64,000 nucleotides of DNA, taken from assembly GCA_947177225.1 (NCBI GenBank), contig CAMWTS010000008.1, positions 1 to 64,000 on the forward strand, in the 5' to 3' direction. Position numbers and translations under genes: made by a program. Position 1 is the first letter of the stretch; the number at the start of each line of letters is the position of its first letter. Under the pieces are notes generated by a model, which was not told where the DNA came from, made no database searches, and saw only the letters and a program-made list of their open reading frames with translations. The DNA comes from an uncultured Alistipes sp. (GTDB lineage Bacteria > Bacteroidota > Bacteroidia > Bacteroidales > Rikenellaceae). Below, piece after piece: positions 58-64,000 of this stretch.

Positions 58-180
58 TTTTTCGTCAAAAGGTGTTAGTAGCGGTGCCGACATGAAATTG
101 GCGCGGATAGGTTGTACTCGATGTACTACCTATTCGCGCCAATGATTGAGGTGACGCTAATGACGCCTTTTCACGAAAAA
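58..180 (+). repeat. Family B long-hairpin element, copy 1b
   Basis: Outer TTTTTCGTCAAAAGGTGTTAGT / CTAATGACGCCTTTTCACGAAAAA; middle TTGGCGCGGATAGG (98-111) / CCTATTCGCGCCAA (129-142); apex GTACTCGATGTACT. Confidence 0.92.
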
Positions 181-16581: not shown

Positions 16582-16842
16582 AGCCGTAAGATTTTTTTGT
16601 TTCGGAAGATAAAATTAATTTCAAAGATAATAATATTTCCGCAAACATATCACATTTGCGGCCGAAAAAAGTTTCTGTTCGGATATACACACCCGCATCT
16701 TCGCAACAGCCTCACCACTCCCCTCACACGGCGTAGCACACCTGTCCGAGCGACAATCCCGGCGCATCATACCCGACAAACGCCGCATCGCAAAGCGGAA
16801 AACCAAACTGCCATATAGTGAATCTGAAAAGACATGACTGCG

Positions 16843-17335
16843 GAAATAGTCTCGCACAGATTTCTCGCTCACGCTCGAAATGACAAAATGCTGTCACTTC
16901 AAGGGAGGGCATGCCCGACCGTAGGAGTCTCGACATCGGTAATTGTCACTCCGAGGAGCCAAAGGCGACGTGGGAGTCTCTTCTGAATTGTCACTCCGAG
17001 GAGCGACGCAGTTGCGACGTGGGAGTCTCGCTGGCGGGAGCACTGTTTGCCACAACAAAAGAGATTCTCACGTCGGACGTGCTGTCCTCCTCAGAATGAC
17101 AGAACTGTGGACATATCACACATAACTGAGATTCTCACGTCGCGGCCATTGGCCGCTCCTCAGAATGACAACACCGTCATGTCATGTCGAACGAATGTGA
17201 GACATCTGGGAAAGACGTGGCCGACGACATGGTTGTTCCATAAAGACTTGACAATGGAAATTGTCACGCACAGATTTCTCGCTCACGCTCGAAATGACAA
17301 GGCAATAGGAATAGTCTCCTAAGCACCACAACCCC
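16843..17335. repeat. Intergenic island 2: cluster of family A short hairpin repeats, both orientations
   Basis: About eight units such as TGTCACTCCGAGGAGCCAAAGGCGACGTGGGAGTCTC, its reverse-complement relatives GAGATTCTCACGTCGCGGCCATTGGCCGCTCCTCAGAATGACA, CAGATTTCTCGCTCACGCTCGAAATGACA and TGTCATGTCGAACGAATGTGAGACATCTGGG. Confidence 0.9.
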
Positions 17336-17336
17336 A

Positions 17337-17459
17337 TTTTTCGTCAAAAGGCGTTAGTAGCAAGCCGCACGTGAAAAGTCCGCCGATGGGGCGTACTGGA
17401 CGTACGTTCCATTGGCGGACTTGAACGAGGCGACGCTAATGACGCCTTTTCACGAAAAA
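17337..17459 (+). repeat. Family B long-hairpin element, copy 2
   Basis: Outer arms TTTTTCGTCAAAAGGCGTTAGT / CTAATGACGCCTTTTCACGAAAAA; middle arms AAGTCCGCCGATGG / CCATTGGCGGACTT; apex GTACTGGACGTAC. Confidence 0.92.
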
Positions 17460-17479: not shown

Positions 17480-18115
17480 TTATACCAAACCCGCAAATCC
17501 CATAAACGCCATAGCCAGCAGGCCGGCAGAGATCAACGCAATGGGTGTTCCGCGCAAAGCAGAGGGCACGTCCTCCATTTCAAGACGCTCGCGAATACCG
17601 GCAAAGAGGATCAATGCCAAAGCGAAGCCCAAAGCCATGGATACCGAGTAGACTACACCCTGCAACAGAGTCAGCTGCTTCTGCATCATGTTGATGGCCA
17701 CACCCAATACGGCGCAGTTGGTAGTAATCAGAGGCAGGAATATACCCAATGCCTGATAGAGCGAGGGCGACACCTTCTTCAATACGATCTCCACCATCTG
17801 CACGAGAGCGGCGATAACCAGAATGAAGACGATGGTCTGCATGTACTGTATCTCGAAAGGTTCGAGGACATAGGTCTGAATGCACCACACCACGATCGAC
17901 GAGAGTGCCATGACAAACGTAACTGCGGCACCCATACCCATCGAGGTCTCGACCTTCGACGAGACACCGAGGAACGGACATATGCCGAGGAACTGCGACA
18001 ACACCACATTGTTGACGAAGATGCTGCCGATGATGATCGCAAACAGCGTTACTGTCGGCACGGTCACCGAACCGCTGTTGAAAGCCTGTAATATCTCTTG
18101 TGAAATCTCTCCCAT
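17480..18115 (-). CDS. rnfA: Rnf electron transport complex subunit A
   Basis: IFVNNVVLSQFLGICPFLGVSSKVETSMGMGAAVTFVM; operon context. Confidence 0.96.
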   Translation of the reverse strand: MGEISQEILQAFNSGSVTVPTVTLFAIIIGSIFVNNVVLSQFLGICPFLGVSSKVETSMGMGAAVTFVMALSSIVVWCIQTYVLEPFEIQYMQTIVFILVIAALVQMVEIVLKKVSPSLYQALGIFLPLITTNCAVLGVAINMMQKQLTLLQGVVYSVSMALGFALALILFAGIRERLEMEDVPSALRGTPIALISAGLLAMAFMGFAGLV

Positions 18116-24984: not shown

Positions 24985-25420
24985 CTGTAATGCCGAGCGG
25001 AGTGAAGCATCTTGGGAAGATGCGGCTTGCGACATGGCCGTTGAATAAAGACTTGACTTCGGGAATAATCGCACACAGATTTCTCGCCGAGGCTCGAAAT
25101 GACAACCCGCTGTCACTCCGAGGGAGGGCATACCCGACCGTGGGAGTCTCGACATCGGTAATTGTCACTCCGAGGAGCTGCAGGCGACGCGGGAGTCTCG
25201 CGGTCGGGAATGCAGTTTGCCGCACCAAAAAAGATTCTCACGTCGGACGTGCCGTCCTCCTCAGAATGACAAAACTGTGGGCATATCACACACAACTGAG
25301 ATTCTCACGTCGCGGCCATTGGCCGCTCCTCAGAATGACAACACAGAAGAAATAGTCTCACACAAATTTCTCGCTTGCGCTCGAAATGACAAGACAATGG
25401 AAATAGCCTAAGCACCACCA
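24985..25420. repeat. Intergenic island 3: family A short hairpin repeats
   Basis: Same unit types and broadly the same order as island 2 (CAGATTTCTCGCCGAGGCTCGAAATGACA; TGTCACTCCGAGGGAGGGCATACCCGACCGTGGGAGTCTCG; TGTCACTCCGAGGAGCTGCAGGCGACGCGGGAGTCTC; GAGATTCTCACGTCGGACGTGCCGTCCTCCTCAGAATGACA). Confidence 0.9.
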
Positions 25421-25426
25421 ACCACC

Positions 25427-25547
25427 TTTTTCATCAAAACGCCACGAATGCAACGCGACGACGGAGCGAAGCGATAGGACGTACTGCGCGTACTTCCTAT
25501 TGATGAGCGACAAGGAGAGGACGCAGGTGCGGTGTTTTCATGGAAAA
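25427..25547 (+). repeat. Family B long-hairpin element, copy 3a (variant outer arm)
   Basis: TTTTTCATCAAAACGCCAC...GTGCGGTGTTTTCATGGAAAA; GCGATAGGA/TCCTATTGA; apex GTACTGCGCGTACT. Confidence 0.85.
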
Positions 25548-25549
25548 GA

Positions 25550-25673
25550 TTTTTCGTCAAAAGGCGTTAGTAGCGGTGCCGACATGAAAGCGGCGCGGAT
25601 AGGCTGTACTAAACCGTACTGCCTATTCGCGCCGATGATTGAGGTGACGCTAATGACGTCTTTTCACGAAAAA
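25550..25673 (+). repeat. Family B long-hairpin element, copy 3b
   Basis: Outer TTTTTCGTCAAAAGGCGTTAGT / CTAATGACGTCTTTTCACGAAAAA; middle GGCGCGGATAGGC / GCCTATTCGCGCC; apex GTACTAAACCGTACT. Confidence 0.92.
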
Positions 25674-25675
25674 GC

Positions 25676-26428
25676 CTACTCCTCCTGCTTGTCCGCAACC
25701 AATATACGTCCGCAATACTCGCAAACAATCAGCTTCTTGCCCTGACGAATATCGACCTGACGCTGGGGAGGTATGCGGTTGAAGCAACCGCCGCAGGCAT
25801 CACGAGTGACAGTCACAACAGCCAGACCGTTGTGAACATTGCTGCGGATACGGTTGTAAGCAGCCAAAAGACGCTCGTCGATGGGCGATTTGGCCTTGGC
25901 GGCCTTGGCCTCCAAATCGGCAACCTGCTGCGCCGTCTCAGCCTCGATCGACTCCAACTCCTCCTTCTTGGCATTGTAGTCCACGGTGCGCTCCTCGACC
26001 TGAGTCTGGGTCTGCTCCACCTGCGCCTTCTTAGCCTTGATGCCTGCGGCATACTCCTTCAAGCGCTTCTCGGCCAGCTCGATCTCCAACTCCTGATACT
26101 CTATCTCCTTGGAGATGGCATCGTACTCGCGGTTGTTGCGTACATTGTTCTGCTGCTCCTTGTAGTTGCCGATCATGATCTTGGCCTGATCGACCTCGCG
26201 TTTACGCTGGCGAGTGAGCGTATTGAGCTCCTCGATCTCGGCATTGACGTTCTCGATACGAGTATTCAAGCCGGCAAGTTCATCTTCAAGATCCTGAACC
26301 TCCAACGGAAGCTCACCCTTCACCTTATTGATTTCATCGATCTGAGAATCAATTTTCTGCAACTCGTAAAGAGCCAGAATCTTCTCCTGCATCGAGTAGT
26401 CAACGTCGCTTGTCTTCTTCTGTGCCAT
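25676..26428 (-). CDS. C4-type zinc-ribbon, coiled-coil protein
   Basis: Long coiled coil and C-terminal CGGCFNRIPPQRQVDIRQGKKLIVCEYCGRILV zinc ribbon. Confidence 0.9.
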   Translation of the reverse strand: MAQKKTSDVDYSMQEKILALYELQKIDSQIDEINKVKGELPLEVQDLEDELAGLNTRIENVNAEIEELNTLTRQRKREVDQAKIMIGNYKEQQNNVRNNREYDAISKEIEYQELEIELAEKRLKEYAAGIKAKKAQVEQTQTQVEERTVDYNAKKEELESIEAETAQQVADLEAKAAKAKSPIDERLLAAYNRIRSNVHNGLAVVTVTRDACGGCFNRIPPQRQVDIRQGKKLIVCEYCGRILVADKQEE

Positions 26429-26446
26429 ATATGTCATAAAGTTATT

Positions 26447-33918: not shown

Positions 33919-34105
33919 CCCGTCCAGCAACACCTGCACGACAAATATCGACTACCGAAACCACTGCTTGCACTGCACTCCTACGGAAGAAGGAACGTTG
34001 CGGTCGCACGACGAATCGCGCTACATGCAGGGCGTGGCAAAGCCAGCGCAACGCCGTGTGCCGTACTTGCCAAGCGATCCGGAATTAAACAGCTTTACAC
34101 GGTTT

Positions 34106-34520
34106 GTCATGTCGAACGAATGTGAGACATCTGGGGAAGACAAGACCGGCAGCATGTTAAAAAACAGCGAAAATCTCCGCGCACAGATTTTTCGCTTACA
34201 CTCGAAATTACAACCCGCTGTCATTCCGAGAGAGGGCATGCCCGACCGCGGGTGTCTCGCATCGGTAATTGTCACTCCGAGGAGCAACTCAGTTGCGACA
34301 TGGGAGTCTCTCCTGAATTGTCACTCCGAGGAGCAGGCAAAGACTGCGACGTGGGAGTCTCGCAGTCACGAACGCTGTTTACCGCAACAAAAGAGATTCT
34401 CACGTCGGACGTGCCGTCCTCCTCAGAATGACAGACACGTCATGTCATGTCGAACGAACGTGAGACATCTGGGGTAAACAAGACCGGAGACATGACCTCA
34501 AATAAAGACTGGACAGTGGA
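34106..34520. repeat. Intergenic island 4: family A short hairpin repeats
   Basis: TGTCATGTCGAACGAATGTGAGACATCTGGG, TGTCACTCCGAGGAGCAACTCAGTTGCGACATGGGAGTCTC, TGTCACTCCGAGGAGCAGGCAAAGACTGCGACGTGGGAGTCTC and others. Confidence 0.9.
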
Positions 34521-34547: not shown

Positions 34548-34680
34548 TTTTTCAGCAAAAGGCATTAGTTACAACGCGCAACGAAAAATGCCCGGACGGG
34601 TAGTACTGTGCGTACGTCCCGTTCGGGCATTTGAGTGAGAGGCAGTAAATGATGCCTTTTCATGAAAAAGTCACGAAAAA
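34548..34680 (+). repeat. Family B long-hairpin element, copy 4
   Basis: Middle arms AAATGCCCGGACGGG (34586-34600) / CCCGTTCGGGCATTT (34618-34632); apex GTACTGTGCGTAC; outer TTTTTCAGCAAAAGGCATTAGT / GTAAATGATGCCTTTTCATGAAAAA. Confidence 0.92.
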
Positions 34681-34683
34681 GAA

Positions 34684-35835
34684 CTACAACTTTCTCGCTC
34701 CATCAGATATCACTACATCATAAACCTTGGGCTGATGACCCCAACGCTCTGCGAAACGGCTCTTGGCAGTAGAGATGAAGTCGTCGTAAAGCTCGGATTT
34801 AACGAGGTTGATAGTGCAGCCGCCAAAGCCGCCGCCCATGATGCGCGAACCGGTCACACCGCACTCGCGCGCTATCTCGTTGAGATGATCCAGCTCCACG
34901 CAGCTCACCTCGTAGTCCTTCGACAAACCCTCGTGGGTCTGATACATGCGTTCGCCGACGGTCTCGTAATCGCCTTGTTCCAAAGCCTGGCACACGTCCA
35001 GCACACGCTGCGTCTCGCCGATGACAAAACGCGCACGCTTTCTGTCCTCCTCGCTGATCTCGCCGCTCACCTCGTCGAGCATCTCCATGGTTGCGTCGCG
35101 CAGGAACTTCACTTCGGGGTGACGCTTCGCAATCGCAGCCACCACACGTTCGCAAGATTCGCGACGCTTGTTGTAGGGCGAATCCACGAGTTCGTGCTTA
35201 ACAACCGAGTCGAGCAGCACCAGACGATAGCCGTGAGCCTCGGGATCGAACGGGAAGTAGCGGAACTCCATCGAGCGGCAGTCGAGACGCATCAGATGTC
35301 CGGCCTTGCCGAATACCGATGCGAACTGGTCCATGATGCCGCAGTTCACGCCGCAGTAGTTATGCTCGGTCGACTGACCTATGCGAGCCAGCTCGAAGCG
35401 GTCGATGCCCAACGCGAAGATCTCGTTAAGGGCATTGGCGAATGTCGACTCCAAAGCCGCCGACGACGACATGCCGGCACCCAGAGGCACGTCGCCCGAG
35501 AAGGCCGTATCGAAGCCGGCAATCTTGCCGCCGCGCTTCTCGATCTCGCGGCACACGCCGAAGATATAGCGCGCCCAGCCCTGCGAGGGTGCGTCCTGCT
35601 CTTGCAGACCGAACTCGGCGTAATCGTCGAGATCGACCGAATAGGCACGCACACGGTCGGTGCCGTTGAGACGAATCTCCGCCACCATGCCTTTGTCTAT
35701 CGCGCCGGGGAATACGAATCCGCCGTTATAGTCGGTATGTTCGCCGATAAGATTGATACGACCGGGAGAGGCATACAGCTCACCCGATGCGCCGAAATGC
35801 TCGGCGAACTTTTCGTTGATAAGTTTTGTGTTCAT
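34684..35835 (-). CDS. galK: Galactokinase
   Basis: ASPGRINLIGEHTDYNGGFVFPGAID and VPLGAGMSSSAALE. Confidence 0.97.
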   Translation of the reverse strand: MNTKLINEKFAEHFGASGELYASPGRINLIGEHTDYNGGFVFPGAIDKGMVAEIRLNGTDRVRAYSVDLDDYAEFGLQEQDAPSQGWARYIFGVCREIEKRGGKIAGFDTAFSGDVPLGAGMSSSAALESTFANALNEIFALGIDRFELARIGQSTEHNYCGVNCGIMDQFASVFGKAGHLMRLDCRSMEFRYFPFDPEAHGYRLVLLDSVVKHELVDSPYNKRRESCERVVAAIAKRHPEVKFLRDATMEMLDEVSGEISEEDRKRARFVIGETQRVLDVCQALEQGDYETVGERMYQTHEGLSKDYEVSCVELDHLNEIARECGVTGSRIMGGGFGGCTINLVKSELYDDFISTAKSRFAERWGHQPKVYDVVISDGARKL

Positions 35836-44446: not shown

Positions 44447-44567
44447 TTTTTCATCAAAAACAGTTAGTTGCCACACAAACGACGTAAGGGACGGAGAGGC
44501 TGTATTGGCATACTGCCTATTCGGACGAACGAGCGCGCGGAAGCAAATAGCGGCTTTTCATGGAAAA
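44447..44567 (+). repeat. Family B long-hairpin element, copy 5a (degenerate)
   Basis: TTTTTCATCAAAAACAGTTAGT...GACGGAGAGGC-TGTATTGGCATACT-GCCTATTCGGAC...CGGCTTTTCATGGAAAA. Confidence 0.75.
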
Positions 44568-44569
44568 GG

Positions 44570-44691
44570 TTTTTCGTCAAAAGGCGTTAGTTACAAGCCG
44601 CAACGAAAATAGCTCGGATAGGCTGTACTTGACGTACTGCCTATTCGGGTTATTGAGCGAGGCGAAGTAAATGATGCCTTTTCACGGAAAA
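44570..44691 (+). repeat. Family B long-hairpin element, copy 5b
   Basis: AATAGCTCGGATAGGC / GCCTATTCGGGTTATT middle stem with G-U/U-G wobbles; apex GTACTTGACGTACT. Confidence 0.9.
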
Positions 44692-44699
44692 GAAAAAGG

Positions 44700-44821
44700 T
44701 TTTTCGTCAAAAGCGGTATTATACAACGCAACACAGGAGCGAAGCGATGGGACGTACTTAGCGTACTTCCCATTGCTGAGCGACAAGGCGCGGAAGTAGA
44801 ATGCCGCTTTTCACGAAAAAA
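44700..44821 (+). repeat. Family B long-hairpin element, copy 5c (GCGGTA outer-arm subtype)
   Basis: Outer AAAAGCGGTATTATAC / GTAGAATGCCGCTTTT; middle GCGATGGGA / TCCCATTGC; apex GTACTTAGCGTACT. Confidence 0.9.
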
Positions 44822-51164: not shown

Positions 51165-51500
51165 AAGTCCACGGATTTCTCACCGACGCTCTAAATAACA
51201 ACCCGCTGTCACTCCGAGGGAGGGCATACCCGACCGTGGGAGTCTCGCCATCGGGAATTGTCACTCCGAGGAGCCAAAGGCGACGTGGGAGTCTCGCTGT
51301 CGGGAGCACTGTTTGCCGAAACAAAAGAGATTCTCACGTCGCAGTCTACGACTGCTCCTCAGAATGACAAACACCGTCATGTCATGTCGAACGAATGTGA
51401 GACATCTGGGAAAGACTTGGCGACAACATGACGGTTGATAAAAGACATAGTTGCGGGAATTATCGCGCACAGATTTCTCGCTTGCGCTCGAAATGACATA
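51165..51500. repeat. Intergenic island 6: family A short hairpin repeats
   Basis: Includes GAGATTCTCACGTCGCAGTCTACGACTGCTCCTCAGAATGACA, TGTCATGTCGAACGAATGTGAGACATCTGGG and CAGATTTCTCGCTTGCGCTCGAAATGACA. Confidence 0.9.
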
Positions 51501-51536: not shown

Positions 51537-51657
51537 TTTTTCGTCAAAACGCCGCAGATGCAACTCTCTGACAGAGCGAAGCGATAGGACGTACTGGGTG
51601 TACTTCCTATTGCTGAGCGACAAAGAGAGGACGCAGGTGCGGTGTTTTCACGGAAAA
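51537..51657 (+). repeat. Family B long-hairpin element, copy 6a
   Basis: Outer AAAACGCCGCAGATGC / GCAGGTGCGGTGTTTT; middle GCGATAGGA / TCCTATTGC; apex GTACTGGGTGTACT. Confidence 0.9.
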
Positions 51658-51680: not shown

Positions 51681-51800
51681 TTTTTCGTCAAAAGCGGTAG
51701 TATACAACGCAACGCAGGAGTGAGACGATGGGCTGTACTGGCGTACTGCCCATTGGCGAACGACAAGGCGCGGCAGTAGAATGCCGCTTTTCACGGAAAA
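51681..51800 (+). repeat. Family B long-hairpin element, copy 6b
   Basis: Outer AAAAGCGGTAGTATAC / GTAGAATGCCGCTTTT; middle CGATGGGC / GCCCATTG; apex GTACTGGCGTACT. Confidence 0.9.
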
Positions 51801-51822: not shown

Positions 51823-52018
51823 TTTTTCGTCAAAAGCGGTATTATACAACTTTTTCGTTAAGCCGAACGAGCAAAGCGAAATTTATTTCAGCTTTGCCGC
51901 GGCGAGAAAAAGTGCATGAAATGAACGCAAACGAAGATCGCCCAGATGGGACATACTAATGTATTTCCCATTTGGGCGAGCAAGCGCGCGGCAGTAGAAT
52001 GCCGCTTTTCACGAAAAA
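51823..52018 (+). repeat. Family B long-hairpin element, copy 6c, with internal hairpin insertion
   Basis: Outer AAAAGCGGTATTATAC / GTAGAATGCCGCTTTT; middle CGCCCAGATGGGA / TCCCATTTGGGCG; extra ~75 nt in the left half starting at 51851. Confidence 0.85.
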
Positions 52019-52050: not shown

Positions 52051-53232
52051 TCACGACAACTTATTAACCTCTATCTCGAAATCTGCCAATACATTCATAT
52101 AGTTGATGAATGCCTCATAGGCAGAACCATAGGGGTTGAAATAAGAGTGTACGTCGCCGTCGGAGAACCACTTTGTGGCCATGTAGTAGAAGTGATCCGA
52201 GGTCTGCATGAAATGCCATACGAACTCGAAATCCTTATTTTTCAACGCCTTGACCTTGGGAGCCAGGGCATACAGCTTCTCAAAGGCTTCGTTCTGCAAC
52301 TCGTTGCCGAGCCATGCCGTTACGTCGCGCTCCTCGTCGGCCCACGACATGGCATGCGGGCAGTGCAGTACAGCCACCGGCTGCAATTTCTTGGTAGCCT
52401 CGCTCACCGTGGCAAACTCGATCTCACCGGTAGAGAGCATGGCAGCAGGCAGAGCCTTCATGAAATCGAAGATACCGGTCGATGCCTTCTGGTGCTCGCC
52501 GAAAGTCTCGTAATCCATAAACAGGTTGACCACGTCGCCATTTTCGGCAGCTACCCAGCCGGCAAACTTATCGGCCGTCAGAGGATACTGATCCCAACCC
52601 TCGTTGGAGAAGCGGAAAGCGATATCGTCGGAGAGCTTGTAGTTGCGCAGCAGCAGGCGGAGCTTATTATCCGTGGCATCGGTGTAGACGAAATTGGGCG
52701 ATTTCCAGCCCAGCACATGTTTGGCACCCTCGGCCAGCATGGTCTTGAAACCCATACGCGACACGGCCTCACCTATCGAGTCGGAGTAGATCAGCTCGGT
52801 ATTGCGGAACGCCGTAGGCTTGCAACCGAACTCGCGCTTTATCATCGACGCATGCAGCTTGACCTGCTCGGCAAACTCCGTCTCCGAACGCAACGATGCC
52901 AGCGAGTGCGAATAGGTCTCGGCAAGAAACTCCACGCAGCCCGTATCGGCAAGAGCCTTGAACGACTCCAACACCTCAGGCGCATAGGCCTTGAACTGCT
53001 CGACGGCCGAGCCCGTTATGGAGAACGAACAACGGAACTTGCCTTTGTTCTCCTTGATGAGCTTCAGCAGCAGCGCATTCATCGGAAGATAGCACTGACG
53101 TGCCACTTTCTGCATGATGGCGCGGTTGGTAAAGTCGTCGAGGTAGTTGTGATCCTTGCCCATGTTGAAGAATCGATATACCTTCAAACGCCAAGGCTGA
53201 TGTACCTGAAAATAGAAGCAAACTGTCTTCAT
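52051..53232 (-). CDS. Glycoside hydrolase family 57 (alpha-amylase-like)
   Basis: TVCFYFQVHQPWRLKVYRFFNMG, ETYSHSLASL, MDYETFGEHQ. Confidence 0.92.
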   Translation of the reverse strand: MKTVCFYFQVHQPWRLKVYRFFNMGKDHNYLDDFTNRAIMQKVARQCYLPMNALLLKLIKENKGKFRCSFSITGSAVEQFKAYAPEVLESFKALADTGCVEFLAETYSHSLASLRSETEFAEQVKLHASMIKREFGCKPTAFRNTELIYSDSIGEAVSRMGFKTMLAEGAKHVLGWKSPNFVYTDATDNKLRLLLRNYKLSDDIAFRFSNEGWDQYPLTADKFAGWVAAENGDVVNLFMDYETFGEHQKASTGIFDFMKALPAAMLSTGEIEFATVSEATKKLQPVAVLHCPHAMSWADEERDVTAWLGNELQNEAFEKLYALAPKVKALKNKDFEFVWHFMQTSDHFYYMATKWFSDGDVHSYFNPYGSAYEAFINYMNVLADFEIEVNKLS

Positions 53233-53247
53233 ATATTTTGTATTTTA

Positions 53248-54570
53248 TTATTTCTTTTCGTTGCACTTTTCGATTGCCTGCTCGTAGACGCGTTTGATCT
53301 TCGCGGCGGCATTGTTCCACTTCAAGCCCGTTACCTCCTGCAAGCCCTTCGACGAGAACATCTTGGCAAGAGCCGGATAGGTAATCAGACCGTATATCGC
53401 GTCGGCCATTGCATCGACGTCCCAGTAATCGACCTTCACGGCATAATCCAGCACCTCGGCTACACCGCTCTGCTTGGAGATGATGACCGGCACGTTCGAG
53501 CGCATGGCCTCCAACGGCGATATGCCGAACGGCTCCGATACCGACGGCATGATATATACGTCGGAGAGCTGGAACATCTTCTGCACGTCGTCGCCGCGCA
53601 GGAAACCTGTGAAGTGAAAACGGTCGGCAATACCCAAAGCCGCGACACGGCGTATCACGTGGTTCATCATATCGCCCGAACCGGCCATTACGAAACGTAC
53701 ATTGGGGACGCGTTTGAGCACCTTGGCCGCAGCCTCGACAAAGTAGTCGGGCCCCTTCTGATAGGTTATTCGACCCAGGAACGTAACGATCTTGTCGTCG
53801 ACACCGCGTTCGGGCAGAGCCGTATCTTTCTCGGCGAAACGCACGGCATTGTGGACGGTCACCACTTTGTCGGGCTCCACGCCATAGCGGTTGATGACGA
53901 TGTTGCGCGTCAGATTCGACACAGCTATCACCATATCGGCAGCGTGCATGCCGGCACGCTCTATGGCATAGGTCTGCGTATTGATATTCTCACCGCTGCG
54001 ATCGAACTCCGTGGCGTGCATGTGCACCACCAGAGGCTTGCCCGACACCCGCTTGGCCGCGATACCGGCGAAATAGGTAAGCCAGTCGTGCGCATGTATC
54101 ACGTCAAACTGCCCCTCCAAATCCTTAGCCACCTGTGCCGCCACTATGGCATAGCGCGCAACCTCCTCCATCAGGTTGGCACCGTATTTTCCCGAGAACG
54201 TATAGCGTTGCGACCATACGTCACCGGGCACCTCCCACGTACGGCGACCCGTCCGCAGATACTCCTCGCGGTAGGTCTCGTAATCCTCCGGAGAGAGATA
54301 AGGGACCATATTCGAGTCGATATGGATAAACGACATCTTGCTCATGATGTCGTCCGCACCGGTAGCCACATCGCCCTTGTAGAGAGCTTCCACATCGCTT
54401 GCATTGACGACCTTCACGAAGCGCTGGTCTTCATCGCCCGAAGCCTTGGGCATGACGAAGATCACCTCGACATCGTTGCGAGCCAAACCTCGCGTCATAC
54501 CGTAGCAGGCCGTACCCAGTCCGCCGGCGATATGGGGAGGGAACTCCCAGCCGAACATTAAGACTCTCAT
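53248..54570 (-). CDS. Glycosyltransferase family 4 / glycogen synthase-like
   Basis: MFGWEFPPHIAGGLGTACYGMTRGLA, VIHAHDWLTYFAGIAA, PSVSEPFGISPLEAM. Confidence 0.92.
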   Translation of the reverse strand: MRVLMFGWEFPPHIAGGLGTACYGMTRGLARNDVEVIFVMPKASGDEDQRFVKVVNASDVEALYKGDVATGADDIMSKMSFIHIDSNMVPYLSPEDYETYREEYLRTGRRTWEVPGDVWSQRYTFSGKYGANLMEEVARYAIVAAQVAKDLEGQFDVIHAHDWLTYFAGIAAKRVSGKPLVVHMHATEFDRSGENINTQTYAIERAGMHAADMVIAVSNLTRNIVINRYGVEPDKVVTVHNAVRFAEKDTALPERGVDDKIVTFLGRITYQKGPDYFVEAAAKVLKRVPNVRFVMAGSGDMMNHVIRRVAALGIADRFHFTGFLRGDDVQKMFQLSDVYIMPSVSEPFGISPLEAMRSNVPVIISKQSGVAEVLDYAVKVDYWDVDAMADAIYGLITYPALAKMFSSKGLQEVTGLKWNNAAAKIKRVYEQAIEKCNEKK

Positions 54571-54631
54571 AATCAGTAAAAAGTTAGTTTATTATTTATA
54601 GTTTTGTGTTTCGATTAAATCCTGTCGGCCG

Positions 54632-56698
54632 CTACTTCCTGCCCTTTGAGGCGTTCTTCGCACCGGTTTTCGAATCAGTCTTCGAGCCTTTGCCCTTGGA
54701 AGCAGACTTGGCAGCCGCCGACTTACGGTCGGCCTTGTCCGCTTTGCCCTCCTTCTTTCCGGCCGAAGCGGCGTATTTACCGATCAACTCGTTGATATAC
54801 AGAAGACCGCCGACGCTTGTAGCATGCGACACCGATCCGCGTGCGGCAAATGGAGGATCGGCCTCGAAACGCTCGCTGACAGAACCTATGCAGTGAGTCT
54901 GCAATTCGCCGTCGAAAGCACGCAACATCTCGCGGGCATCGTCGACAAACCGCTCTCCGCCCAGAGAGAAGCAGCTCTTGACATAGAGCATAAGCGGCCA
55001 TATCCACACCGAACCGTTGCGCGAAGCGAGATCCTGCGAGCGTTGATCCTCGGCGTAGGTCGACTCGAACAGAGGATTGAGCGGCGAGAGCGAACGCAGG
55101 CCGCGCGGCGTGAGCAGATGCTGACGCATGACCAGAATCATGTCGACCTTCTGCGAGTCGTTGAGCATCGAGTAGTCCAGACCGCATGCCACGACCATGT
55201 TGCAGCGTATGAACTTATTGGTTTCGTATTGATTTACATAGTCGGCCGCATAGCCCTCCTCTTCGAGCCAGAACTTCTCGATGAAGCTGTGACGGGTAGT
55301 CTCCGGAATATCCTTCCAGCGATCGACGAATGCCTTGTCCTTGTGTTTGCGAGCCAGCTCCAAGGTGTACATCACGGCATTGTACCACAACGCCTCCACC
55401 TCGACGGCATAACCCGCACGCTGCGTTACGGGGCGTCCGTCGACCATAGTACCCATCCACGTCAGCGGGCGGTCGGCAGCCTCTGCCCATATCAGACCGT
55501 TGTCGTGCATGACGATCTCACCGGCTATACCGCGGCGATATGCCTCCAAGACAGATTTCATGGTCTCACCGTAGCGCTGCCACAACTCCTTGGTTCCTAT
55601 ATGTTTTTCAAGATGCTGCAACGTCCAGAACAGCCACAGCGGAGCATCGGCCGAGACACGCGCCGAGGCCGAACCGGCAAAGTCGCCGTCGCGCATCGAG
55701 CGCACCATCGTATCGAGCACATCGATGCAGTCCTCCTTGTAGCCCTGAGTGAGAGTCAGACCCGGCAGCGAAATAAACGTGTCGCGGCCTATTGGACCGA
55801 ACCACGGGTAACCGGCTATGACCTCGGTACGCTGCCCGGGACGGCGTATTACGAACTGACGCGCCGAATGTTCCAGACAACTCAGAAAATCGATCTTATG
55901 CGTGCGGCGCATGATCGACTGTTCGAACACGGCGTCGATGGTTTCGGGCGATGCCATCATGTCGGTCGAAGCCGAGAAGATAACGCTTTCACCCTTTTTG
56001 ATCTTCAACTCGAAATAGCCCGTAGTCATCAGGTCCTCATAACCGTCGTAACCGCGCTTCAACTCCTCCTGATACTCGAAGTTGTAGTACCAGTCGGGAG
56101 CGGCAACGAACTCGGCATCGGCGCGGTTGGTCTGCAAATAGAGCCACGGGAAGCCATCGTAGAGCCGGCACTTCACACCGCACGGCACCTCGTAAGAGCG
56201 GCCGTCGGCCTGCATGTTGGCCTTCGACAGCGAGTGTTTGTCGCGGAAAGCCATCAGCGGACGCAGACGCAATGTGGTGTCCGAATGGGCATCGACAAGC
56301 GTATAGCGTATCATCAGCTGCGTGCGCTTATGTATCCACAGCAGCTCCTTGCGAAGTATCACGCCTCCCACACGATAGGTGATCGTGGGGGTGGGAGTAT
56401 AGGCGAAATCGGTGATGTATTTGTGTCCTCGCGGCTCGTAGACGCCCTGATAACGGTGCAGAGCCAGATTGAACGACTGGTCGTGCTGCACGATGGTCTC
56501 GTCCAGCGACGAGAGCAGCACGAACGTGCGGTCGCTCTCATCGATCGGCGCAACCATCAGACCGTGATACTTGCGCGTATTGCAGCAGACGATCGTGGTG
56601 CTCATATAACCGCCGCGACGATCCGTAGCCAGCATCTCGCGCGAGAGCGAATACTCCAAATTGCCCAATTCCCGCTTATCGAATGTGAGTCCTGACAT
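54632..56698 (-). CDS. Amylo-alpha-1,6-glucosidase (glycogen debranching enzyme)
   Basis: LSREMLATDRRGGYMSTTIVCCNTRKYHGLMV, GYPWFGPIGRDTFISLPGLTL; basic Lys/Ser/Ala-rich C-terminal tail. Start at MSGLTF. Confidence 0.93.
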   Translation of the reverse strand: MSGLTFDKRELGNLEYSLSREMLATDRRGGYMSTTIVCCNTRKYHGLMVAPIDESDRTFVLLSSLDETIVQHDQSFNLALHRYQGVYEPRGHKYITDFAYTPTPTITYRVGGVILRKELLWIHKRTQLMIRYTLVDAHSDTTLRLRPLMAFRDKHSLSKANMQADGRSYEVPCGVKCRLYDGFPWLYLQTNRADAEFVAAPDWYYNFEYQEELKRGYDGYEDLMTTGYFELKIKKGESVIFSASTDMMASPETIDAVFEQSIMRRTHKIDFLSCLEHSARQFVIRRPGQRTEVIAGYPWFGPIGRDTFISLPGLTLTQGYKEDCIDVLDTMVRSMRDGDFAGSASARVSADAPLWLFWTLQHLEKHIGTKELWQRYGETMKSVLEAYRRGIAGEIVMHDNGLIWAEAADRPLTWMGTMVDGRPVTQRAGYAVEVEALWYNAVMYTLELARKHKDKAFVDRWKDIPETTRHSFIEKFWLEEEGYAADYVNQYETNKFIRCNMVVACGLDYSMLNDSQKVDMILVMRQHLLTPRGLRSLSPLNPLFESTYAEDQRSQDLASRNGSVWIWPLMLYVKSCFSLGGERFVDDAREMLRAFDGELQTHCIGSVSERFEADPPFAARGSVSHATSVGGLLYINELIGKYAASAGKKEGKADKADRKSAAAKSASKGKGSKTDSKTGAKNASKGRK

Positions 56699-56844
56699 AT
56701 TATTAAGGTATTTATAGGTAATATTTAACACTTGCGTATCGTAAAGTAAATTTACGAAAAAATCTCCGAACTTCCAAATTATCAATCGCATAAAGGGAAG
56801 GTCGCCCTTCCCTTTATCGACTCAAACATATATCGGTCAAAAGG

Positions 56845-59800
56845 TTAGGCCCACTTAACCAACGCAAAGTCCATTCTGTAAGGCAGATGCTCGTTGCGAG
56901 GATATACACGCAGCGCCACATCGAACGAGCCTGTACGCTGGGGAGCATAGTCCAGAGCCAGCACCACGGTGCTGCCGTCGACCGACTGCAACTCCAACTG
57001 ACGCGTCTCCACGACATTGGCACCCTGTCCGGCCTCTATCTGCTTGGCCACGACCAGCTCGGCACCGATATCCTCCGGCGAGAGGTTGGCCAGATCGAGC
57101 GTGATCTCGAAGCGATACTTCGAACCAACGAATATTGCCTCGCTCTCGATCTCGGCACGCTTCACATCGAGGATCTTCACCGAATCCCACGCCGCCGACA
57201 CCTTGCGTTTCCAGGCGGCGATGCGACGTGCCAGCATATAGTTGTCGGCGAGCATCAGCTCCTTGCGTGCGGCGAGCTTGTTGTAGAATCGCTCCTCGTA
57301 ATCAATCAGCATGCGGTTGGTCGTGAAGTTCGACGCGATATCGGCCACACAACGCTTGACCGAAGCCACCCAATTATGAGGTATGCCGTCCTTGGCGCGA
57401 TCGTAGTAGAGCGGCACGATCTGCTCCTCGATCGTATTGTATATCATCTCGGCGTCGAGCTCGTCCTGATAGCCCTGATCGGCATATGTACGCTCCATGG
57501 GCAGACACCAGCCGGCATCTTTCTTATAGCCCTCGACCCACCAGCCGTCGAGCACCGAGAACTGCATTACACCGTTCATTACGCACTTCTCGCCCGACGT
57601 ACCCGAAGCCTCCAACGGACGGGTCGGCGTATTTAACCACACATCGACACCCTGCACCATGCGACGGGCAAGCTCCATATCGTAGTTCTGCAAGAAGAGT
57701 ATCTTGCCCACGAACTGCGGCATGGCCGACACTTCGACGATGCGCTTTATCAGATCCTGGCCGGGCTTGTCGTTGGGGTGAGCCTTGCCCGCGAAGATGA
57801 ACTGCACGGGGTGCTCCTTGTTATTGACGATTGCCGAGAGACGATCGAGATTGGTAAAGAGCAGGTATGCACGCTTATAGGTTGCGAAGCGACGGGCAAA
57901 GCCGATAGTAAGTACATCGGGCTTGATGCCCTCCACGACCTGAACCATCTGGCGCGGCGACTCCAAACGCACCTGCGTAGGATCGCTGAAACGCTTGCGA
58001 ATGTGATCGATCAGGCGGGTCTTCAACGCCATGCGCTCGCGCCACAGCGTCTCGTCTTCGATCTCGTGCACCTTCTGCCATGCCGGTATATTATAGGTAT
58101 GTCCCTCGAAGCCTTCGGGGAAATACTTCGCATAGAGACGGCGCAAATTCGATGCCGTCCACGTCGGGAAGTGCACACCGTTGGTGACATATCCGATATG
58201 AAGCTCGTTCTTGAAGTATCCCGGCCACATATTGCCCAAAATATCTTTCGACACCTCGCCATGCAGCCACGACACGCCGTTAACCTCCTGCGAGAGGTTG
58301 CATGCCAGCACCGACATCGAGAACTTCTCGTTCGGATCGCTGGGGTTGGTCTTGCCGAGGTTGATGAACTGATCCCACGTTATGCCCAGCACATCGGGAT
58401 AATGCGACATATACTGGCGCAACATCGCTTCGGGGAATGCGTCGTGACCGGCCGGCACGGGCGTATGGGTCGTAAAGAGCGACGAGCTGCGGACAACCTC
58501 CAACGCCTCCGAGAACGACAGACGTTTCTTGGCGATGAGGTTGCGGATACGCTCGATGCCGATAAATGCAGCATGACCCTCGTTGCAGTGATATACCTGC
58601 TGCTTGATACCCATCTTCACCAGCGCGCGGATACCGCCCACACCGAGCAGGATCTCCTGCTTCAAACGATTCTCCCAGTCGCCGCCGTAGAGATAATATG
58701 TCACCTGACGATCCTCTTCGAGGTTGGCCTCGTAGTCGGCATCGAGCAGGAACAGATCGGTGCGTCCCACCTGACACTTCCACACGCGAGCCGAAAGCGA
58801 ACGGCCGGGGAAGGCGATCTGTATGCTGATCCAGTTGCCGTCCTCGTCACGCACGGGCGAGATGGGCAGCTTGAAGAAGTTCTGAGCCTCGTATGTAGCC
58901 TCCTGCGCTCCCTGAGACGAGAGTCGCTGAGTGAAATAGCCGTAGCGATAGAGCAGACCCACAGCAACCATCGGTACATTGCGATCCGACGCCTCTTTAA
59001 GATAGTCGCCTGCGAGAATACCCAGACCGCCCGAATAGATCTTCAACGACGAGTGCAAACCGTACTCCATCGAGAAGTATGCGATCTTGGCCGATTCGGG
59101 CGACGGCTTCTCCGACATGTATTCGGTGAACTGAGCATACACCTCGTCCATCTTTTCGAGGAAACCGGCATCGGTCGAGAGCTGCGCAAGACGCTCCACA
59201 GAGAGCTTGTCGAGCAGCACGATGGGATTGCGATCCACCTCGACCCACAGCTTCTCGTCGGCATACTCGAACAGGTCGCGAGCAGCCGGAGTCCAGCACC
59301 ACCAAAGGTTGCGAGCCAGCTCCTCCAACGGTTTCAGACGCTCGGGAATGCTCTTCTCGACCATCAGACGATGCCATGAAGGACGGTTCGAGGTGAGCTG
59401 CTGACGCACGAAATTGATCTGCTCGTCCTTGGCTCCGCCGTCAAGCACGACACGGTTGGTACGCGATATGGAGTTGTCGATAGCCTCTTCGTAGGCCTTC
59501 TCGTACTCGGCGTAGAGCTTCGACCAGAGTGCCGTATGCGACACCTCGACAGCCGATACGCTAAGCGACGAGTAATCCCCGGTCGACAGACCGAGATAGC
59601 GCTTGATCGTATCGGTAATCTCCAATGCCACCTCGCGCTCGTTGTAGTCGTCGCGACGTATTACGTCCACACCGCCGTGATGAGACTGTTTCGAAACCCA
59701 CATGCCGAAACCCGACAATGTAGTGGTTACGGTCGGCACGCCGAATGCCACCGATTCCAGCGGAGTGTAGCCCCACGGCTCGTAGTAAGATGCGAACACC

Positions 59801-61092
59801 GTAAGATCCATGCCCGAGAACAGGTCGTAGTAAGGCATGTTGAAGATACCGTCGTTGCCGGTAAGATAGGTAGGCACGAACAACACCTTCACGCGCGACG
59901 ATTTGGTCGAGAGTATGCTGCCCTCGATGCTCTGGCACACGGCGTCCCACGCCTCGTTCTCTATGTTGTGCGTCAGGAAACGCTTCTGCGACGGGTCGAT
60001 CGGCTTCGATGGATCCTGCAAATGCGCCTGCAAATCGACACGCATACCCACCGTCGCAGCCGGCACGGCTATGACAGCAAGCACCTCGCGGTCGTCCGTA
60101 TCTCGCACGGCCAGCTGCTTCAAGGCTTCCAGGAATACGTCGATACCCTTGTTGCGGAACTCATAGCGGCCGCTTGTAGCCACGATCAGCGGCTCCTTCT
60201 CGAACTTGTGATCCCATGCAGCCTCGGCCACAGCGATGATCTTCTTGCGCGCCAGACGGCGTTTCTCGGCCAGCACACCGGCCTCAGGTACGAAGCCGTT
60301 ATCGAAGCCGTTGGGAGTAATGCGGGTTACCTCTCTGCCCAACAGATACTTGCACTCATTGGCCGTAATATCGCTCACCGTAAGGAAAGCATCGGCATAT
60401 GTGGCCGCAGCCTTCTCTATCGAATGCTTGGCCAAAACGTTGAACTGACGCGCCAGGTCGTCGGCATTGAACTTGTGCAGATCGTTGTAGAGCGGCAGAC
60501 GATTGCCGGCAATGCAGCGGCCGATGACCGTGGCATGAGTCGAAAATACCGTAGCCACGTAGGGCGCATTGTTGCGCAGATGCAGGCTGCCGGCCGAAGT
60601 CATCCACTCGTGGAAATGAGCCACGACCTTGTCCGTTGCCGCACAGAAGTGCTCTACATAAGAGGTGATTACCTCTCCTGCGGCATAACCGAACAGCACC
60701 GGCTCGATGTAGTCCCACTGACCCGATATCGAATCGACATGATACACGTCCCACAGCTTCTTCAATATCTCGTCTTTCTGACCGAAGAACGATTTGAAAT
60801 CGACGAGTATGGCTATGGGCGAGCTTTCGATCTTCCAGCGACCTATACGCACACGTATACCGGTGGCATACAACGCCTCACGCCATGCGCTCATCAGCGT
60901 CACGTCCTCGTCGAATTCGGGATTGCCCCCGTCCTGCGTGAAATCGGGACCGATGGTTATGTATTTATCGCCCATGCGGCTAACTACGGTCGAGGCCTTG
61001 GTGGCAATCACCGTATGTATTCCGCCGACCTTGTTGCAAACCTCCCAACTTACCTCAAAGAGAAAATCGGGACTCAGATTGACATTACTCAT
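56845..61092 (-). CDS. Fusion protein: N-terminal GT3-type glycogen synthase + C-terminal alpha-glucan phosphorylase
   Basis: N-terminus FEVSWEVCNKVGGIHTVIATKAS and PYYDLFSGMDLTVFASYYEPWGYTPLESVAFGVPTVTTTLSGFG (eukaryotic-type glycogen synthase); from about residue 570 ERLKPLEELARNLWWCWTPAARDLF...IAYFSMEYGLHSSLKIYSGGLGILAGDYLKEASD...VYHCNEGHAAFIGIERI (DUF3417/alpha-glucan phosphorylase). Confidence 0.93.
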   Translation of the reverse strand: MSNVNLSPDFLFEVSWEVCNKVGGIHTVIATKASTVVSRMGDKYITIGPDFTQDGGNPEFDEDVTLMSAWREALYATGIRVRIGRWKIESSPIAILVDFKSFFGQKDEILKKLWDVYHVDSISGQWDYIEPVLFGYAAGEVITSYVEHFCAATDKVVAHFHEWMTSAGSLHLRNNAPYVATVFSTHATVIGRCIAGNRLPLYNDLHKFNADDLARQFNVLAKHSIEKAAATYADAFLTVSDITANECKYLLGREVTRITPNGFDNGFVPEAGVLAEKRRLARKKIIAVAEAAWDHKFEKEPLIVATSGRYEFRNKGIDVFLEALKQLAVRDTDDREVLAVIAVPAATVGMRVDLQAHLQDPSKPIDPSQKRFLTHNIENEAWDAVCQSIEGSILSTKSSRVKVLFVPTYLTGNDGIFNMPYYDLFSGMDLTVFASYYEPWGYTPLESVAFGVPTVTTTLSGFGMWVSKQSHHGGVDVIRRDDYNEREVALEITDTIKRYLGLSTGDYSSLSVSAVEVSHTALWSKLYAEYEKAYEEAIDNSISRTNRVVLDGGAKDEQINFVRQQLTSNRPSWHRLMVEKSIPERLKPLEELARNLWWCWTPAARDLFEYADEKLWVEVDRNPIVLLDKLSVERLAQLSTDAGFLEKMDEVYAQFTEYMSEKPSPESAKIAYFSMEYGLHSSLKIYSGGLGILAGDYLKEASDRNVPMVAVGLLYRYGYFTQRLSSQGAQEATYEAQNFFKLPISPVRDEDGNWISIQIAFPGRSLSARVWKCQVGRTDLFLLDADYEANLEEDRQVTYYLYGGDWENRLKQEILLGVGGIRALVKMGIKQQVYHCNEGHAAFIGIERIRNLIAKKRLSFSEALEVVRSSSLFTTHTPVPAGHDAFPEAMLRQYMSHYPDVLGITWDQFINLGKTNPSDPNEKFSMSVLACNLSQEVNGVSWLHGEVSKDILGNMWPGYFKNELHIGYVTNGVHFPTWTASNLRRLYAKYFPEGFEGHTYNIPAWQKVHEIEDETLWRERMALKTRLIDHIRKRFSDPTQVRLESPRQMVQVVEGIKPDVLTIGFARRFATYKRAYLLFTNLDRLSAIVNNKEHPVQFIFAGKAHPNDKPGQDLIKRIVEVSAMPQFVGKILFLQNYDMELARRMVQGVDVWLNTPTRPLEASGTSGEKCVMNGVMQFSVLDGWWVEGYKKDAGWCLPMERTYADQGYQDELDAEMIYNTIEEQIVPLYYDRAKDGIPHNWVASVKRCVADIASNFTTNRMLIDYEERFYNKLAARKELMLADNYMLARRIAAWKRKVSAAWDSVKILDVKRAEIESEAIFVGSKYRFEITLDLANLSPEDIGAELVVAKQIEAGQGANVVETRQLELQSVDGSTVVLALDYAPQRTGSFDVALRVYPRNEHLPYRMDFALVKWA

Positions 61093-61504
61093 ACTCCGTT
61101 ATTTTTATTTATTAATTATTTGCAGAAATATTTTCCCGTGCAAAGGTAATACAAATATTTAATAAAGGGCAACCTTTTTAAAATTATTTAATAACTTTTT
61201 CAGACAAATGCTCCGCTACCGCTCTCTGGCCGGCATTCGGTACCTAAAATTTAATCTTTCCGTAACATAGCTCACCCGACCCATCAGCAAAAGATATGCA
61301 AAAACAGATACTCCGCACCGACAATAAGAACAATTCCCCGCCCCATATGCCAACCGCCGGACACAACCCGCTCCAAGCCCCATTTCACCCATTCGGTCTT
61401 CAAAGCCCGACTCCACACGTGCAATATTTCGCACCCATGCACTACACAAAACATGATGACAAACACCCTGCATGCCACGCTATAAAATATTCGACAGCCC
61501 TCTG

Positions 61505-61945
61505 CAATATGACAAGTCGAACGAATGTGAGACATCTGGGGGGGGGTGCAGAATGTATAAAAACAGTGGAAATCGCCGCGCACAAACTCTTAACTGTGCT
61601 TAGAACAGCACCGGCCTGTCACTCCGAGGAGCAACGCAGTTGCGACGTGGGAGTCTCGCCATTAGCAATTGTCACTCCGAGGAGCCGCAGGCGACGTGGG
61701 AGTCTCTTCTGAATCGCCACTCCGAGGAGCCAAAGGCGACGTGGGAGTCTCGCAGGCGGGTGCGCAGTTTGCCGCACCAAAAGAGATTCTCACGTCGGAC
61801 GTGCCGTCCTCCTCAGAATGACAAACACGTAATGTCATGTCGAACGAACGTGAGACATCTGGGAAAGACAAGACCGGCAGCATGTTAAAAGACAGAGGAA
61901 ATCGTCCCGCACAGATTTCTCTCTCTCGCTCGAAATGACATAACA
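61505..61945. repeat. Intergenic island 7: family A short hairpin repeats
   Basis: TGTCACTCCGAGGAGCAACGCAGTTGCGACGTGGGAGTCTC, TGTCACTCCGAGGAGCCGCAGGCGACGTGGGAGTCTC and others, ending in the CGAAATGACA unit. Confidence 0.9.
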
Positions 61946-61978
61946 ATGGAAATAGCCAACCAAGAACCACCAACCATC

Positions 61979-62101
61979 TTTTTCGTCAAAAGGCGTTAGT
62001 TACAAGCCGCACGTGAAAAATCCGCAGATGGGCTGTACTTGACGTACTGCCCATTTGCGGATTAGAACGAGGCGCAGTAAATGACGCCTTTTCACGAAAA
62101 A
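61979..62101 (+). repeat. Family B long-hairpin element, copy 7
   Basis: Outer TTTTTCGTCAAAAGGCGTTAGT / AATGACGCCTTTTCACGAAAAA; middle AATCCGCAGATGGGC (62019-62033) / GCCCATTTGCGGATT (62049-62063); apex GTACTTGACGTACT. Confidence 0.92.
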
Positions 62102-62105
62102 GAAA

Positions 62106-64000
62106 CTATCGCAGGAACAACAACTCCCTATACTTGGGCAACGGCCAAAGCTGATCGTCGACAATCTCTTCGAGCTTATCGATATGAGTGCGAATATCGT
62201 CGAGATAGAGAGCCACGGTGTCGTGATAGGCAATGGCCTTGGCACGCTCGCCAGAGAGACGGTTGGCAACCTTGCGTGCATCGATCATCTCGCCGCAGAG
62301 GGTCTGAATGGCTGCGGTATGCGACTGTATGCGTTTGATAAGTTCGATGTCGGAGGTGGCGGGAATACCGAGCTCTTTCATCTTGTAGGCCTTGTCGAGC
62401 AGCATACCCTCGTATTTGGAGGCAATGGGCAAGATATGGTTCATAGCCAGGTCGCCCAGCACACGCGCCTCGATCTGTATCTTTTTCGTGTATGTCTCCC
62501 ACTTGACCTCCGTGCGCGCCTCGACCTCGACACGGTTATATACGCCCATGCGTTCGAACATCTCCACGGTAGCCTTGTCGAGATAGCGGTCGAAGATGAG
62601 CGGCGTGGAGGTCTCACAGTCGAGCCCGCGCGCAGCGGCCTCGGCTTTCCACTCTTCGGAGTAGCCGTTGCCATCGAAATGTATCGGCCGACTCTGCTTT
62701 ATCATGCGCTTCAATACTTCATATATGGCGCGCTCCTTACGCTTGCCCGACTCGATGAGAGCATCGACCTCGCGTTTGAAGTCGGTGAGCTGCTCGGCAA
62801 CGATCGTATTGAGAACGATCATAGCCTCGGCGCAGTTGTCCGACGAACCCACAGCGCGGAACTCGAATCGATTGCCGGTGAAGGCGAAAGGCGAGGTGCG
62901 GTTGCGGTCGGTGTTATCGAGGAAGATGCTCGGTATGTGCTGCACACCGCTCATCTTGAACACATTCTTGGCATCGAAGCGGATCGTGTCGTCGCTCTTG
63001 CTATGCTCCAACTTGTCGAGCACGGTCGATATTTGCGAACCGAGGAAGGTCGAGATAATGGCCGGCGGAGCCTCGTTGGCACCCAGACGATGGGCGTTGG
63101 TGGCACTCATGATGGAGGCTTTGAGCAACCCGTTGTGACGGTGCACGGCCGATATGACATTCACCAGGAAGGTGATGAATTGCAGATTCTCGGCAGGAGT
63201 TCGGCCGGGGCCGATGAGATTCACCCCAGTGTCGGTGCCGATCGACCAGTTGCAGTGCTTGCCCGAACCGTTGATGCCCTTGAATGGTTTTTCGTGCAGC
63301 AGCACACGGAAATTGTGGCGGCGCGCCACCTTGTCCATAACGGTCATCAGCAGCTGATTATGGTCGTTGGCCAGATTGGTCTGCTCGTATACCGGAGCCA
63401 GTTCGAACTGATTGGGAGCCACCTCGTTGTGGCGCGTCTTCAACGGAATGCCAAGCATCAGACACTCATACTCCAAGTCGCGCATAAACGACATCACGCG
63501 CTCGGGTATGGCACCGAAATAGTGATCCTCCAACTGCTGGTTCTTGGCCGACTCGTGCCCCATCAAAGTACGCCCCGTAAGCATCAGATCGGGACGCACC
63601 GCCCACAGACTCTCGTCGACGAGGAAATACTCCTGCTCCCAGCCCAGATACGAAAACACCCTCTCCACCGATTTGTCGAAATAGCGGCACACCTCGGTGG
63701 CGGCACGATCGATGGCCGAAATAGAGCGCAGCAGAGGCATCTTATAGTCGAGAGCCTCGCCCGTATATGAAATGAATATGGTCGGGATACACAGCGTCGT
63801 ACCGACGATGAATGCCGGCGAGGCAGGATCCCATGCCGAGTAGCCGCGCGCCTCGAACGTATTGCGTATGCCGCCGTTGGGAAACGACGATGCGTCCGGC
63901 TCCTGCTGCACCAGCAGCTTGCCCGAGAACTCCTCCAACACTCCCCCGTCGGGATCCGGTTCCGAGAACGAGTCGTGCTTCTCGGCCGTACCGCCGGTCA
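62106..64000 (-). CDS. glnN: Type III glutamine synthetase, C-terminal part (N-terminus beyond window end)
   Basis: QQEYFLVDESLWAVRPDLMLTGRTLMG, RHNEVAPNQFELAPVYEQTNLANDHNQLLM, GINGSGKHCNWSIGTDTG; frame stays open to position 64000. Confidence 0.96.
   Translation of the reverse strand, partial: TGGTAEKHDSFSEPDPDGGVLEEFSGKLLVQQEPDASSFPNGGIRNTFEARGYSAWDPASPAFIVGTTLCIPTIFISYTGEALDYKMPLLRSISAIDRAATEVCRYFDKSVERVFSYLGWEQEYFLVDESLWAVRPDLMLTGRTLMGHESAKNQQLEDHYFGAIPERVMSFMRDLEYECLMLGIPLKTRHNEVAPNQFELAPVYEQTNLANDHNQLLMTVMDKVARRHNFRVLLHEKPFKGINGSGKHCNWSIGTDTGVNLIGPGRTPAENLQFITFLVNVISAVHRHNGLLKASIMSATNAHRLGANEAPPAIISTFLGSQISTVLDKLEHSKSDDTIRFDAKNVFKMSGVQHIPSIFLDNTDRNRTSPFAFTGNRFEFRAVGSSDNCAEAMIVLNTIVAEQLTDFKREVDALIESGKRKERAIYEVLKRMIKQSRPIHFDGNGYSEEWKAEAAARGLDCETSTPLIFDRYLDKATVEMFERMGVYNRVEVEARTEVKWETYTKKIQIEARVLGDLAMNHILPIASKYEGMLLDKAYKMKELGIPATSDIELIKRIQSHTAAIQTLCGEMIDARKVANRLSGERAKAIAYHDTVALYLDDIRTHIDKLEEIVDDQLWPLPKYRELLFLR

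Follow-up and report, generated by a model that had tools for sequence, protein, structure and literature searches.

A double-hairpin repeat with a near-invariant G.T pair, joined to stop codons and following replication direction in uncultured gut Bacteroidales

B elements and their gene neighbourhood

The window, that is, the whole 64,000-nt stretch of DNA analysed (positions 1 to 64,000 of contig CAMWTS010000008.1 from an uncultured Alistipes sp.), contains 12 two-arm copies of a repeat of about 123 nt, named here the B element. It is a double hairpin of two stacked stems with ends TTTTTCGTC and CACGAAAAA. All copies are on the plus strand. Copy 1 (58-180) adjoins the stop codon of yidC, a minus-strand gene at 185-2131, and its middle stem with the GTAC/GTAC apex, containing the G.T pair considered below, spans positions 98-142. 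The right half of a further plus-strand copy, truncated at the contig start and lacking the 5' arm, lies at 1-55. Copies at 17337-17459, 34548-34669 and 61979-62101 adjoin the stops of minus-strand genes encoding, respectively, an Rnf-Nqr subunit (17480-18115), a galactokinase-like protein (34684-35835) and glutamine synthetase III (62106-63998); the minus strand of the last copy reads ATCCGCAAATGGGC..GCCCATCTGCGGATTTTTC and is terminator-like. A tandem pair consists of a distal copy (25427-25547) and a gene-proximal one (25550-25673) that adjoins the stop of the minus-strand gene 25676-26437. There are also two runs of three tandem copies. One is formed by copies at 44447-44567, with one additional G/A mismatch in the stem, 44570-44691 and 44700-44820, the latter being gene-proximal and lying beside a minus-strand gene call at 44827. 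The other is formed by copies at 51537-51657, 51681-51800 and 51823-52018, of which the third adjoins the stop of a minus-strand GH57 gene (52051-53163).

The 5' arm of this third copy is split by another hairpin of about 70 nt (CTTTTTCGTTAAGCCGAACGAGC..GCGGCGAGAAAAAG; window positions 51823-51950), and at the end of contig C48 a portion of the same hairpin sequence stands behind a B copy. The GH57 gene belongs to a glycogen cluster (52051-61092) that has the island at its 3' end; other members are a debranching enzyme and a protein of 1415 aa that combines glycogen synthase and phosphorylase domains.

B elements are parts of larger units. The islands contain from one to four B copies arranged head to tail and share about 400-600 bp at 80-95% identity; from variable starting points inside an array of palindromes, named here family A, the homology runs to the 3' end of B. 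These palindromes, of the TGTCACTCCGAGGAGC..GCGACGTGGGAGTCTC and TGTCATGTCGAACGAATGTGAGACATCTGGG types, lie upstream of B in most islands of the window (16783-17332, 25002-25410, 34081-34500, 51166-51500 and 61500-61940), occur in both orientations and form large hairpins of their own. The plus-strand stretch 16783-17332, with palindromes of the TGTCACTCCGAGG.. type, is the 5' part of the island of copy 17337-17459 and has long homology with other islands. The plus-strand stretch 61617-61978 is likewise the 5' part of the island of copy 61979-62101, and the homology with other islands starts at about its beginning.

With a covariance model, the 2.06-Mb genome to which the window belongs (G000) was found to contain about 137 copies. 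The true number is probably higher, because the assembly breaks at the B repeat. Many contigs of this genome end within or beside B, e.g. C2:153474, C8:1, C9:38 and C28:21464. Of 24 further genomes from the same genus, 16 had matches, from one to more than 130 copies each, and 8 had none; the covariance model had no match in 16 genomes from other families of the order. The element was thus found in one genus of uncultured gut Bacteroidales. The GTDB matches listed all belong to MAGs of Bacteroidales, mostly of ruminant-gut origin, that were deposited under the names Alistipes sp., Rikenellaceae or Bacteroidales bacterium. The end sequences of B are species-specific. Carriage by phages or plasmids was rejected, as no copy was found in phage and plasmid records (124-nt query) or in viral contigs (core pattern). 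A known RNA family was rejected as well, since no match in the window exceeded the gathering score of any Rfam family.

The preliminary description of copy 1 regarded the element as antisense to the gene whose stop codon it adjoins, and this arrangement proved to be general. Given genes called in stretches around the copies by a purpose-written codon-usage caller, rough for starts and reliable enough for stops, the 3' neighbour is an antisense gene in 68 of the 78 islands of the same genome that have a called 3' neighbour, and the stop of an antisense gene is adjoined in 71 of 75 islands of the relatives. The gap between the stop and B is mostly 0-30 nt in the former and mostly 0-6 nt in the latter, and often it is 0-3 nt. 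On the gene strand, the stop is followed by TTTTTCGTGAAAAGGCG in G000, and by TTTCTTGTGATAAGG and TTTTATCGTGATAGTGG in the related genomes G017 and G003. Additional tandem copies of TTTTTCGTGA often lie between the stop and the element, and the TGA within TTTTTCGTGA is the stop codon of several genes. The idea that solo TTTTTCGTGA marks stop codons in general or is an excision scar was rejected, as the motif is practically absent behind other stops, away from B.

The islands lie between tandem genes, antisense (25) or sense (6) to the element, between convergent genes (24) and, rarely, between divergent ones (2). Of 17 testable sites, 6 are common to different species. Given these common sites, part of the islands may be old; since only this number is shared, the sites are not proven to be fixed, nor the islands to move freely.

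The G.T column

The non-canonical pair of copy 1 is G106.T134, within GGATAGG (105-111) and CCTATTC (129-135); above this stem there is a mismatch and then the GTAC/GTAC apex. A recount agreed with the earlier observation that all two-arm copies of the window have G.T in this column (12 of 12, every one on the plus strand), including copy 51823-52018 with its split arm. The further statement that the column never becomes G-C or A-T is correct for the window but does not extend to the genome, where 134 good cores comprise 127 with G.T, 4 with G-C and 3 with A-T, so that about 5% are Watson-Crick paired. If only distinct cores are retained, G.T occurs in 59 of 66. Cores from related species have G.T in 30 of 31 cases, and a GTDB-wide scan found 90 places, 89 with G.T and one with A-T, the latter two sets partly overlapping. 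To avoid circularity, the column was excluded from the alignment and left free in the counts, the anchors being the GTAC..GTAC apex and the remaining stem pairs, and the pattern of the GTDB scan stopped one base short of the column on either side.

The column is a near-invariant non-Watson-Crick site within a conserved block. About the same invariance is seen in the neighbouring A-T pair and in two G-C pairs higher up, so that the G.T column is a part of the block GA..GG / CC..TT and not a lone odd site. Pairs above and below the block vary freely in concert, in agreement with the covariation seen earlier around the column. The B hairpin is real, since one or more double changes occur in 21 of the 38 pairs that RNAalifold yields.

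The exceptions include two B copies of one type, L101:4501 and L089:7626-7746, in which G.T is replaced by G-C. They are perfect palindromes in the core and apex (GGATAAGTTGTAC..GTACAACTTATCC).

The wobble had been taken as an indication that the plus strand is the functional one. However, G.T on one strand is A.C on the other and both are non-Watson-Crick, so the invariance of the column alone cannot name the strand.

Replication direction, folding and termination

The direction of the elements agrees with GC skew in about 75 of the 78 islands of the genome containing the window. Contig-wise strand counts show that the elements keep to one strand along a contig: islands on the minority strand of their contig number 3 of 68 in G000, 4 of 119 in G003 and 4 of 66 in G017, against 20, 44 and 21 expected at random. 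In G011, whose contigs are short, the 3 of 19 against 4.7 expected are too close to tell. Counts by contig were used, as single 20-kb stretches of G011 and G017 have too little GC skew to judge polarity. On its contig, the ribosomal L2 gene occupies the G-rich strand and all elements occupy the other one, and the G-rich strand was therefore taken as leading; it follows that the leading-strand template is the plus strand of B, and the lagging-strand template its minus strand.

B is present at 56 of 124 eligible leading-strand stops and at 3 of 92 lagging-strand ones; a stop was eligible if followed by more than 100 nt, and the sample was drawn around elements, so that only the contrast between the two strands counts. 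At convergent sites, where two stops are on offer, B goes with the leading-strand gene. Since lagging-strand stops are nearly empty and the leading-strand gene is chosen at convergent sites, gene orientation is insufficient to account for the direction of B, and purely gene-linked orientation was rejected. More surprising than the G.T column itself are the polarity with respect to replication and the junction with stop codons.

On contig C28 (loci L103, L104 and L127) both the element strand and GC skew flip at about 7.8-21.2 kb, as would be expected for a replication origin, or for a misjoin; dnaA is located elsewhere (C11:34496).

On the coding strand of the abutting gene, many B copies have a GC-rich hairpin with a T-run right behind it. 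With a T-run called at a tail score of at least 2.5, the run after the middle stem is on the minus strand in 54 and on the plus strand in 5 of the 85 gene-proximal copies of the same genome; the respective numbers are 15 and 4 for the distal copies (n=38) and 47 and 25 for the relatives (n=78). Terminators were predicted within 110 nt of B-bearing stops in 28 of 64 cases (44%) in this genome and in 46 of 63 (73%) in relatives, so not at every copy; the background is 39% and 35%, respectively, at other stops with enough room and 8-13% inside genes. Several orthologous gene ends that have no B in relatives have ordinary terminators.

One possibility is that B is retained as the 3' terminator of leading-strand genes, acting in their mRNA (the minus strand), where the A.C mismatch would weaken or shape the hairpin and G.T would be a mere mirror image. 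The prevalence of T-runs on the minus strand of gene-proximal copies agrees with this, as does the fact that terminators are predicted at B-bearing stops as often as at other gene ends or more often, and mostly there is no space for another terminator between the stop and B. The hairpin with a T-run on the coding strand just past the stop codon is what intrinsic terminators look like. However, the terminator of B is placed inside an outer inverted repeat, is repeated genome-wide and is almost absent from lagging-strand genes. Termination as the reason for retention leaves unexplained the replication polarity with the near-absence from lagging-strand genes, the species-wise spread, the outer stem, and the excess of G.T over A.C at other columns in relatives. 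On balance, we consider it unlikely.

The predicted RNA energy is lower for the plus strand in 114 of 126 copies of the genome containing the window (mean -58.7 vs -49.9) and in 101 of 103 related copies (-70.3 vs -54.9). Wobble pairs were then counted in the other stem columns, with the G.T column excluded and the stems defined by Watson-Crick pairs alone. G.T exceeds A.C by 120 to 61 in the same genome (54 to 45 after removal of 90% redundancy) and by 171 to 53 in relatives (146 to 42); counted by column, the numbers are 12 vs 17 and 22 vs 4. The redundancy-free and by-column counts make the excess firm in relatives and weak in the genome containing the window.

Selection against strong hairpins on the lagging template, due to cleavage or slippage, could produce such asymmetry, as the surviving copies would expose the weaker strand and thus have G.T on plus and A.C on minus. 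Indeed, the minus strand, placed on the lagging template by skew and the ribosomal operon, is the weaker folder in most copies. Selection against hairpins on this exposed strand is a live alternative, although its probability is rather small: a general stability penalty predicts neither one fixed column at 95-99% nor the strict link to stop codons, and the strength of the stems is maintained by compensatory changes.

The preliminary description suggested a plus-strand transcript (or plus-strand ssDNA), antisense to the gene, as the functional molecule. Read in this way, B would act as a structured RNA whose conserved G-U wobble is recognised by a protein or an RNA. The plus strand does fold better and tolerates G.T, so this part of the proposal stood; the plus strand as a transcript found no support. 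None of 73 islands had a Bacteroidetes-type promoter on plus at a distance of up to 200 nt from the element, the control frequencies of the pattern being 43% of gene upstream regions and 1% of mid-gene stretches. The gene upstream of the island is also antisense in about half of the islands and thus offers no source of transcription, and the T-runs are oriented oppositely. Because of the T-runs and the promoter counts we consider an antisense plus-strand RNA very improbable. Most plausibly, the RNA in which B acts is the mRNA of the abutting gene rather than an antisense RNA. The replication-linked orientation is predicted by neither the antisense-RNA nor the mRNA reading. A strand-asymmetric DNA hairpin carrying the terminator of the neighbouring gene fits the data better than an antisense plus-strand RNA.

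Relation to known repeats and possible origin

B elements resemble REP/BIME sequences: they are high-copy intergenic palindromes in mosaic arrays, their termini can provide a stop codon, and imperfect pairing matters (PMC3733652). They also share the location near the 3' ends of ORFs, mostly of tandem or convergent genes, and the avoidance of divergent promoters. However, B has a single orientation relative to both the gene and replication, and a built-in terminator. GTAG REPs are 20-40 nt long, whereas B is about 123 nt with two stacked stems and has no GTAG tag, and the genus of B has no Y1/RAYT gene. CGTC-tagged REPs, reported in Bacteroidetes among others, are similar to B in having no associated transposase, and the plus strand of B, which begins with TTTTTCGTC, is a further resemblance; their stems measure 8-9 bp and their loops 4-5 nt, they carry short CCA-like tails, and they form mainly head-to-head dimers (PMC3733652). 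B has none of these latter traits, being a longer two-stem hairpin with copies in tandem head to tail. The ends of IS200/IS605 and TnpA_REP (Y1 HUH) systems are strand-specific hairpins with irregularities, and Y1 enzymes act on the lagging-strand template (PMC6006769), a coupling resembling that of B; but there is no Y1 transposase here, and no IS was found adjoining B.

Indeed, no Y1 transposase (PF01797) was detected in G000 and 60 other genomes of the genus, control genomes being positive, and mobilisation by RAYT or IS200 was therefore rejected. Similarly, a retroelement (group II intron, retron or DGR) was rejected, as no reverse transcriptase (RVT_1, PF00078) was found in G000, again with positive controls.

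The B elements adjoin stop codons, run antisense to the gene, follow the direction of the fork and in many copies carry a terminator-like hairpin on the minus strand. Our preferred reading, which we hold to be about evenly balanced between right and wrong, is that B forms the end nearest the gene in a REP/BIME-like composite, a strand-labelled non-autonomous single-stranded DNA repeat. This composite, in which family A palindromes precede one to four B hairpins of about 123 nt, would have spread in a single genus of uncultured gut Bacteroidales and been homogenised separately in each species. It may move, or have moved, non-autonomously, or its copying may proceed through single-stranded DNA at the fork. 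The two strands of the hairpin would differ by the non-Watson-Crick pair, and a putative protein could discriminate between them, similar to irregularities in REP hairpins cut by RAYTs; imperfect pairing of REP hairpins is required for RAYT cleavage (PMC3733652). Copies would persist right behind stops, and we propose that they survive there because they carry their own terminator.

The variation of copy number from zero to more than 130 among species and the species-specific ends argue for spread. On the other hand, neither a target-site duplication nor a clean pair of empty and filled sites from one species came to light, and the absence of Y1 transposases from the 61 genomes and of RVT_1 from G000 also counts against the preferred reading. 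Copying at the fork alone does not explain the better folding of the plus strand, because the lagging template exposes the minus strand, the weaker folder. A more specific scheme, in which short repeats are copied at the fork behind leading-strand stops, bring their own terminator and have the G.T/A.C label read by a putative single-strand factor that is neither Y1 nor a reverse transcriptase, is a tentative and rather doubtful possibility.

REP-like repeats are common. However, the literature on replication-polar REPs and on repeats of this bacterial group contained nothing direct, and the papers searched did not report a REP-like repeat locked both to replication direction and to stop codons. 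Here both rules are obeyed with few exceptions in several species, at more than 100 copies per genome, and with no known REP transposase present. If the pattern stems from the mechanism of spreading, it exposes a new single-strand DNA process; if it stems from selection, it shows how forks come to tolerate hairpins and how transcription termination can pass to mobile repeats. For mutation, a defined single site is available in the G.T column. Hairpins of integron attC sites, identified by the cores GTTRRRY and RYYYAAC together with an integron integrase, likewise follow stop codons.
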